A program made the translations under genes and the position numbers. From Candidatus Moraniibacteriota bacterium (lineage in GTDB: Bacteria > Patescibacteriota > Minisyncoccia > CAIUEV01 > JAHKAQ01): a DNA stretch of 50,676 nt. The stretch is taken from NCBI GenBank assembly GCA_014729725.1, contig WJJL01000008.1, positions 1 through 50,676 of the forward strand, in the 5' to 3' direction. The notes beneath the pieces are model-generated. The model was not told where the DNA came from. It searched no databases and saw nothing but the letters and a program-made list of their open reading frames with translations. Of the stretch, positions 29,616 to 35,101 are shown piece by piece; position 1 is the first letter of the stretch; each line of letters opens with the position of its first letter.

Positions 29616-29689
29616 TGGGCGACTCAGGACTTGAACCTGAGACCTCGTCATTATCAGTGACGCGCTCTAACCAGCTGAGCTAGTCGCCC
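29616..29689 (-). tRNA. tRNA-Ile (anticodon GAT)
   Basis: Acceptor GGGCGAC pairs with GTCGCCC; the anticodon stem CGTCA/TGACG holds loop CTGATAA (anticodon GAT); T-arm CTCAG-GTTCAAGT-CCTGAG. No CCA is encoded (CTTCTT follows discriminator A). Its first 23 nt overlap the 3' end of the ybeY reading frame on the same strand. Confidence 0.96.
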
Positions 29690-30176
29690 GTTCCATATAT
29701 TTTTTAATGCAATTATGCATTTTTTTCATTTTTAAGCTGTCTTTTTTATTATAATGATTAAATCCGGATAAATGAAGCAACCCATGGATTAAAGCACTAA
29801 TAATCGCCGATCCAAGCTTCCTTTTTGTCTTATTTGATTTTTGTTTAATATATTCGACACTTAAATATATTTCGCCGACACTCGGGGTGTTTTGTTCAAT
29901 GATGTTTTTTAAAGGATCTTCCTGTTTTTCATAATTAAAACTCAAAACATCGGTAGCTTTGTTGATTTTTCTATACTTACTATTTAGCTTTTTAATCTTA
30001 TTATTGTCAATAAAAACAATATTTATTTGTTGGGGGCATTTGGGGTTTTTCAGGCATTTAATCAAGGCTTTCTTTAATAAATTTGCATCCAGCTTTTTTT
30101 TAAACTTACTTAAAAAACCGTTTTCAACTTCAAAAAAAATTTTTATTTTTATTGTATTTTTTTGTTTAATCTTCAC
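29667..30176 (-). CDS. ybeY: endoribonuclease YbeY (16S rRNA maturation)
   Basis: Zinc-dependent RNase needed for 16S rRNA 3'-end processing and ribosome quality control. The signature HGLLHLSGFNHY supplies the three metal-binding His residues (H-x3-H-x5-H), preceded by TDVLSFNYEK and SVGEIYLSVEYIKQ. At 169 aa it is typical. Its start overlaps the stop of yqeY by 4 nt, so translation is coupled. The last codons (RATSSAG, TAG) are read from the 5' part of tRNA-Ile: the stop codon lies in the tRNA D-arm. Confidence 0.95.
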   Translation of the reverse strand: MKIKQKNTIKIKIFFEVENGFLSKFKKKLDANLLKKALIKCLKNPKCPQQINIVFIDNNKIKKLNSKYRKINKATDVLSFNYEKQEDPLKNIIEQNTPSVGEIYLSVEYIKQKSNKTKRKLGSAIISALIHGLLHLSGFNHYNKKDSLKMKKMHNCIKKYMERATSSAG

Positions 30177-30619
30177 TCAAGATTTTTTAATACCAGATCC
30201 TTTATTCTTTCTCCCGAAGCAATTCCTTGAGTTTCTTTAATCGCAACAGGCATTACTTTACCTATATCCTTTTTTTCTTTGGCTTTAGTTTCTTTAATTG
30301 CCTGTTTTACTATTTTTTCTAACTTTTCATCGCTTAATTCTTCCGGCAAAAATTCTTTAATGATTTTAGCCTCCTGCTCTTCCTTTTCTTTCAAATCGTC
30401 CCTGCCAGCGTTCTGATATTGTTTTATGGAATCCTGACGCCTTTTTAATTGATTTTTTAAAATCGAAACAACCTCCCGGTCATTTAAAGGCTCTTTTTTT
30501 TCGATTTCTTTTTCCTTTATAGCGCTTTTTATCATTCTTAAAGTACTTAAAACAACTTGATCTTTATTTTTCATAGCTGCTACAAATTTTTGATCAATTT
30601 TTTTTATAAGATTTTTCAT
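30173..30619 (-). CDS. yqeY: GatB/YqeY domain protein
   Basis: A 148-aa all-helical YqeY protein, resembling the tail domain of GatB and some Glu/Gln-tRNA ligases that bind tRNA. Diagnostic text: LRMIKSAIKEKEIEK, LKRRQDSIKQYQNAGRDDL, KIIKEFLPEELSDEKLE and DIGKVMPVAIKETQGIASGERI. It lies between rpsU and ybeY, the widely conserved rpsU-yqeY order. Exact activity is not settled; a role in tRNA-dependent amidation is inferred from the domain only. Confidence 0.93.
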   Translation of the reverse strand: MKNLIKKIDQKFVAAMKNKDQVVLSTLRMIKSAIKEKEIEKKEPLNDREVVSILKNQLKRRQDSIKQYQNAGRDDLKEKEEQEAKIIKEFLPEELSDEKLEKIVKQAIKETKAKEKKDIGKVMPVAIKETQGIASGERIKDLVLKNLE

Positions 30620-30633
30620 TATTTTTCATTATT

Positions 30634-30891
30634 CTATTGTTTGCCGATTTTTCCGCTTCTAAAGCGGTTTTTTTCATCTTCAAGTCTGCCTAATTTAATC
30701 AGTCTTTCCTTTTTCTTTAAAAGCTTAATTCTATGCAACGCCCTTTGCTTTCTTGTTCTTTTATTCATTGTCTTTTTATGATATCGGCGGTCGCGACTTC
30801 TTTTTCCTACCCCGCTTTGCTGCCAGCGTCGGCTGAATCTTCTTAAAAGATTTTCTACGGGTTCATTGCCTTTATTTTTAACTTCAACCAT
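30634..30891 (-). CDS. rpsU: 30S ribosomal protein S21 (bS21)
   Basis: Small basic protein on the 30S platform next to the 16S 3' end that carries the anti-Shine-Dalgarno. The family pattern is clear: VEVKNKGNEPVENLLRRFSR, then WQQSGVGKRSRDRRYHKKTM and a Lys/Arg-rich tail; at 85 aa it is slightly longer than the 71-aa E. coli form. The start is decided by a perfect AGGAGGTG upstream. This is the only strong Shine-Dalgarno I find in the window. It heads the rpsU-yqeY-ybeY-tRNA-Ile run. Confidence 0.96.
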   Translation of the reverse strand: MVEVKNKGNEPVENLLRRFSRRWQQSGVGKRSRDRRYHKKTMNKRTRKQRALHRIKLLKKKERLIKLGRLEDEKNRFRSGKIGKQ

Positions 30892-30898
30892 TTATAGA

Positions 30899-30906
30899 CA
30901 CCTCCT
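30899..30906 (-). promoter_or_regulatory. strong Shine-Dalgarno of rpsU
   Basis: Minus-strand AGGAGGTG, with 9 nt between the AGGAGG core and the ATG, is fully complementary to the canonical anti-Shine-Dalgarno CACCTCCT. Among some 48 protein starts examined here only prfB (AAAGGA) has anything comparable, and much weaker. Confidence 0.92.
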
Positions 30907-34707: not shown

Positions 34708-35101
34708 GGGAGTGACGGGCTTCGAGGATAGATAAGGTAAGTATTGCAAGCCAAGTTTTAAAGATCTTGTAAAAACTTTAAAAATTATAGTCGCAAAACT
34801 ATTTAATAAGGCTAAGGTTGCAATAGCTAACGCTTTTGCTCCAATGAGCCTTCAAACCGCTACTGCCTAATACGCAGCAGCCATCGATTCAATTGATGCC
34901 TAATAGATTGAAATCGGTGTCGTTTATTAGGCGAATCCTTTAAGAGCGTTTCCCTTTTTTAGGAGGATTTTGCAAGGAAACAGAAAAATTCATTTTTTTG
35001 CTCAACTTAAGTGAATTTTTCCAAAAATCGGTTGAGCTAAGCTTGTAGAAAATATTTTGCCAAATTTATCCCACGCCGGTTCAACTCCGGCCACTTCCAC
35101 C
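34708..35101 (+). ncRNA. ssrA: tmRNA (ssrA)
   Basis: The 5' end GGGAGTGACGGGCTTCGAGG and 3' end GGTTCAACTCCGGCCACTTC form the tRNA-like domain: GGGAGTG pairs with CACTTCC, and the T-arm is GCCGG-TTCAACT-CCGGC. Discriminator A is followed by CC, then T, so the final A is not encoded. The resume codon is probably GCA at 34820, giving the tag AIANAFAPMSLQTATA and TAA at 34868-34870. A pseudoknot helix GCCTAATA/TATTAGGC-like is seen downstream. It is about 394 nt, a normal size, and sits between smpB and infC. Confidence 0.93.

Follow-up and report, generated by a model that had tools for sequence, protein, structure and literature searches.

The rpsU locus and its leader

The window considered here is the whole 50,676 nt-long stretch of contig WJJL01000008.1, from a Candidatus Moraniibacteriota bacterium. 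The features on which this work is centred lie on its minus strand:

30906 to 30899, minus strand: extended Shine-Dalgarno (SD) of rpsU, AGGAGGTG, read from the sequence
30634..30891, minus strand: rpsU, ribosomal protein bS21, 85 aa (PF01165, E=8.8e-08; class alignment)
30173..30619, minus strand: yqeY-like gene, 3' of rpsU, without SD (PF09424, E=1.3e-43)
29667..30176, minus strand: ybeY, homologue of endoribonuclease YbeY, without SD (-2.9 kcal/mol; PF02130, E=5.3e-29)

The match of bS21 to PF01165 is above the curated cut-off (32.2 bits vs 27). The start of ybeY overlaps the end of the yqeY-like gene; an earlier note on this DNA had seen ybeY as fitting an anti-SD (ASD) theme, while both genes are better read as ordinary neighbours. 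We also observed that the tmRNA at window positions 34708-35101 has an unusually long predicted tag, AKLFNKAKVAIANAFAPMSLQTATA.

The rpsU leader reads ...aataagaatAGGAGGTGtctataaATG, with the ATG 9 nt after the end of AGGAGG, and the AGGAGGTG within it is complementary to the 16S tail CACCUCCU. Paired with the tail AUCACCUCCUUUCU, which is the one seen in four order-mates and not that of the genome's own 16S, the leader forms a duplex of 12 pairs, interrupted by one bulge, at -16.1 kcal/mol. This value lies below the published mark of -13 kcal/mol, the program used here being different from the published free_scan. Among the 41 called genes of the window, rpsU ranked first, the runner-up being at -6.2 kcal/mol; hence the strong SD that had been described 9 nt before this ATG is seen in the sequence and is clearly first in the window.

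Shine-Dalgarno use across the genome

The window contig belongs to a 1.14 Mb MAG (G000), for which we ranked the leaders of 815 called genes whose starts were chosen in an SD-agnostic way; rpsU scored below the limit of the gene caller and was put into the ranked list by hand. Each leader was compared with its own shuffled windows. Down to -8 kcal/mol we counted 14 leaders where 11.3+-2.3 were expected, with weak matches at -3 and -5 kcal/mol slightly commoner in leaders than in shuffles; in SD strength, about 800 genes are near chance. Separate from these is a strong tail, with 6 called genes at <= -16 kcal/mol vs 0.0 in 20 shuffles; rpsU belongs to this tail, which extends to -22.3 kcal/mol. 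A motif-first scan added short genes, bringing the genome to about 10 intergenic genes with an extended SD. Besides rpsU, these were (identities by Pfam):

Fe/Mn superoxide dismutase (SOD), SD -22.3 kcal/mol
rhodanese lipoprotein, SD -22.2 kcal/mol
DUF5320 protein, SD -21.5 kcal/mol
DUF5684 protein, SD -20.6 kcal/mol
HU (G000:C52:5532, locus L089), SD -19.3 kcal/mol
DnaJ-type zinc protein, SD -13.5 kcal/mol
four proteins with no Pfam match over the cut-off
Locations given for the genes of SOD, the rhodanese lipoprotein, DUF5320, DUF5684 and the four Pfam-less proteins: G000:C65:1119, C29:17365, C50:3378, C30:31488, C67:3931, C65:4214, C44:667, C37:9404

Chance, an artefact of start choice, contamination or the AT-rich background could be called upon for such sites, since we worked on MAGs with predicted starts and AGGAGG occurs about 470 times in this genome. 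We regard this as very improbable. The shuffles leave nothing to be expected at the strength of the six top genes, and the contigs carrying the extended-SD genes have the GC of the rest of the genome and SD-less neighbours, so that these genes are not obvious contaminants. Moreover, the rpsU SD is kept in 9/9 members of the order, as it is in MAGs bearing the names Moran-, Doudna-, Andersen- and Kerfeldbacteria. The earlier note had taken relatives whose rpsU lacks an SD as speaking against its reading; there were none among these nine order members, and class-wide the SD and the ASD are kept or missing together (see below).

The description of the genome as nearly free of SDs agrees with these counts, most genes being near the shuffled expectation apart from about 10. 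That only rpsU has a strong SD holds within the window, and it holds for those ribosomal proteins that were recognised in the upper part of the ranking; genome-wide it is wrong: genes with such sites outside the window are few though not zero, and several, HU and SOD among them, are stronger than rpsU. Among the ribosomal protein genes identified in that upper part, by their translation and not by a systematic search, no other approached the SD of rpsU.

The sites of HU and SOD speak for the chief rival to the circuit proposed below, a plain booster in which nothing hides the ASD and a few genes (HU, SOD, bS21, small membrane proteins) are lifted by a strong SD, with no sequestration and no feedback. 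We consider it possible, albeit somewhat doubtful. The SDs of HU and SOD, which exceed that of rpsU in this genome, are in its favour; EF-Tu, recognised by translation, reached only -6.2 kcal/mol and rpsR had nothing comparable, though both should gain from a booster. For rpsR, no comparable SD was present in any ASD-intact genome checked, the best being -9.7 kcal/mol (G005, at an alternative start).

An apparent avoidance of SDs, suggested by mock windows at -60..-40, was rejected: the mock windows were often coding and the shuffled windows showed no depletion, and for these reasons avoidance is not claimed. The leaders of this genome show an excess of A at -11 and -10 (0.55 and 0.53) and of T at -12 (0.48), which is possibly a signal for SD-less initiation.

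The 16S tail and the rpsU leader in the class

The 16S is absent from the assembly, and no member of its family has a readable 16S 3' end. Where the tail of an order-mate could be read, in four genomes, it ends in AATCACCTCCTTTCT each time and keeps CACCTCCTTTCT; a 16S devoid of ASD, a finding that the earlier note had set against its own reading, was not encountered among these four order-mates, the genome's own 16S being missing. The named relatives place the order within Ca. Moranbacteria, a name from which we infer that the class is probably GTDB Paceibacteria.

A pattern search gave 16S tails for 126 of the 188 genomes of the class, many of them canonical and many with CCTCC lost outright. 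On the 16S tree the ASD state requires at least 10 label changes; in the other classes of the phylum CCTCC is mostly kept, among the matches listed. In many of the altered tails an inverted repeat with the spacer downstream is preserved (e.g. TCCTTTTAAGGA). Two genomes may be mixed bins, precisely G114, with two different 16S tails, and G156, with an intact ASD though G060, of the same genus (g59), has lost it.

For 70 genomes of the class we had both the 16S tail and the rpsU leader, and we considered as SD any leader at <= -12 kcal/mol. An rpsU SD was present in 33/37 ASD-intact genomes vs 1/33 of those that had lost the ASD; counting families, it was present in 15/18 vs 0/18 (p=2.9e-7). Independent pairs on the 16S tree gave about 3.3 in the same direction, 0 in the opposite one and 0.7 with no difference; only 4 pairs lie on supported branches, too few for a sign test, and for this reason the statistics rest mostly on families. 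The ASD-intact genomes whose rpsU had no SD were G035, G101, G079 and G156. Counts of AAGGAGGT(4-9)ATG in the 188 genomes, judged by eye, showed no visible split between ASD-intact and ASD-lost genomes, probably since they are dominated by matches in coding sequence. A Patescibacteria-like rpsU, preceded by an extended SD, also lies on a contig labelled Lutibacter sp. (L354), which is probably mislabelled or misbinned.

Around rpsU, in ASD-intact loci, 3.3% of the neighbouring genes were at <= -12 kcal/mol (mock 0.4%), and rpsU had the strongest SD in 14/19 of these loci, against 272 genes. Another gene with a widely kept site is HU, for which the best start within 36 nt was taken in each gene: a giant SD was present in 8/11 ASD-intact vs 0/12 ASD-lost genomes, reaching -21.7 kcal/mol in ASD-intact relatives (L281-L310), while a second HU copy of the window genome (L307) has none. 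The HU and SOD sites point to a small SD regulon rather than to rpsU alone. In G035 the SD of HU is kept (-18.0 kcal/mol) after that of rpsU has gone, hence the ASD can be kept for other genes; this case fits a plain booster, against which stands the consistency of rpsU as an SD gene across the class.

A sign of selection came from an ASD-altered genome, G030, whose 16S tail reads GATTATCTCTTTTC (ASD part ATTATCTCTTTTC). Its rpsU leader, GAAAAGAGATAAT, is the exact 13-nt complement of this altered tail, or a 16-nt one if the bases past the likely 16S end are included; when all 33 ASD-lost lineages were shuffled 300 times, runs reached 12 at most. This indicates that the pairing of SD and ASD is selected. 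Own-tail pairing in G126 (a 10-nt run, p=0.04) and in G012/G143 (helices with gaps, p values near 0.005 and 0.001) is suggestive only, and 28/33 ASD-lost lineages had no own-tail pairing at p<=0.05. Covariation of the leader with an altered ASD is thus represented by one clear case, which speaks for the class and not for the window genome.

One could also regard the strong sites as relics, SD use decaying class-wide with rpsU and HU simply the last to lose it and having no special role. The repeated loss of the ASD, and the CCTCC mostly kept elsewhere in the phylum among the matches listed, would fit such a decay, which we nevertheless think improbable: rpsU and HU have both retained strong sites in most ASD-intact families or genomes, these sites are much stronger than expected of a decaying motif, and the matched leader of G030, pointing to active selection, already weakens the idea.

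The comparison supports the view that the rpsU SD-ASD pairing is real, is one of very few such sites and is under selection in this class of Patescibacteria, in parallel to Bacteroidota: its loss accompanies that of the ASD throughout the class, and in G030 it matches the altered ASD, which argues for its maintenance by selection.

bS21 and a putative feedback circuit

In Flavobacterium johnsoniae, autoregulation of bS21 by ribosomes lacking it was shown by experiment, and Tyr54 of bS21 redirects the 16S tail (McNutt et al. 2023, PMC9976891). In the same work the circuit was recognised by rpsU being the clear winner among ribosomal protein genes, and in Flavobacteriales usually genome-wide, and an altered ASD (UCUCA) with a covarying rpsU leader was described in Chryseobacteria (PMC9976891). 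The window genome resembles this system in being poor in SDs, in the intact ASD of its order-mates and in an extended rpsU SD below -13 kcal/mol; the compensatory leader of G030 is the counterpart of the Chryseobacteria case. Unlike Bacteroidota, we are dealing here with a different phylum, with about 10 SD genes instead of one and HU as a second conserved client, with a longer C-terminal tail of bS21 and with an ASD lost many times in the class.

The likeness does not extend to the Bacteroidia pocket residue Tyr54. Its position, taken from a F. johnsoniae sequence verified against 7jil, corresponds to His53 in the window; 6/9 of the order members have Tyr there. In the class Arg prevails, with Tyr in 11/37 genomes that keep the ASD and in 3/33 that have lost it. 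As a marker of sequestration this position was rejected, being neither conserved in the class nor diagnostic across it. Chlorobia, too, combine an extended rpsU SD with a bS21 lacking the Tyr54 signature, and a similar though not identical mechanism was proposed for them; unlike the window genome, they belong to Bacteroidota, and most of the other pocket residues are kept in them (PMC9976891). A search of the PDB for bS21 returned no ribosome structure from Patescibacteria.

What does vary with the ASD is the end of the protein. In the window, bS21 continues past the conserved LG motif with a C-terminal tail about 17 residues long, and the median number of residues past this motif is 16 in ASD-intact vs 3 in ASD-lost lineages (whole-protein length, family-level p 0.005). 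bS21 is present in nearly all ASD-lost genomes, which implies that it does not exist for a feedback circuit alone.

We put at about even the chance that the rpsU SD is a working one, and that a normally masked or unused ASD is read by ribosomes lacking bS21, giving feedback on rpsU and a small regulon. Under this model, AGGAGGTG would be a working SD, one of about 10, that pairs with the 3' tail of the 16S, the remaining genes initiating without SD. In complete 30S subunits the ASD would normally be unavailable or unused; when bS21 is missing it would become exposed, and messages with an extended SD would be translated, rpsU first, then HU, SOD and others. For rpsU this would amount to a negative feedback loop on bS21, whereas HU, SOD and the other SD genes would be a small regulon reading the same ribosome state. 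The class-specific C-terminal tail of bS21 would be the part likeliest to contact the 16S tail. By analogy with Bacteroidota, feedback through ribosomes lacking bS21 is plausible in Patescibacteria.

A point against the circuit is that it is not obvious why HU, SOD and the other SD genes should respond to bS21; they would suit an ordinary booster, which the HU and SOD sites keep alive as the main rival. The length of the bS21 tail, which tracks the ASD, and a pairing extended over 9-13 nt, arguably beyond what a booster needs, speak instead against the booster. More tentatively, and with less than even confidence, we suggest that in this class the ASD may have no general role in initiation and may be kept only while a bS21-gated regulon of about 10 extended-SD genes (rpsU, HU and others) needs it, decaying once the sites are dropped; ASD, leader and bS21 tail would then evolve as one unit.

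A survey of genomes in which SDs are scarce, with or without CCUCC, has categories (ii and iv) that match both states found within this class (PMC10783764); in the available text of that survey Patescibacteria and Parcubacteria are not mentioned and, differently from here, the ASD state is not linked to particular genes. In the open-access literature we found no report of such an rpsU SD/ASD circuit in Patescibacteria, which does not prove its absence.

Few parts of bacterial rRNA are as conserved as the anti-Shine-Dalgarno. This class of Patescibacteria loses it repeatedly, and whether it is present can be told from the leader of a single ribosomal protein gene, which makes the class a natural experiment on the purpose of the ASD once general SD use is gone. 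The proposed circuit would carry a well-proved bacterial 'specialized ribosome' mechanism past Bacteroidota, and would name HU as a further conserved client.
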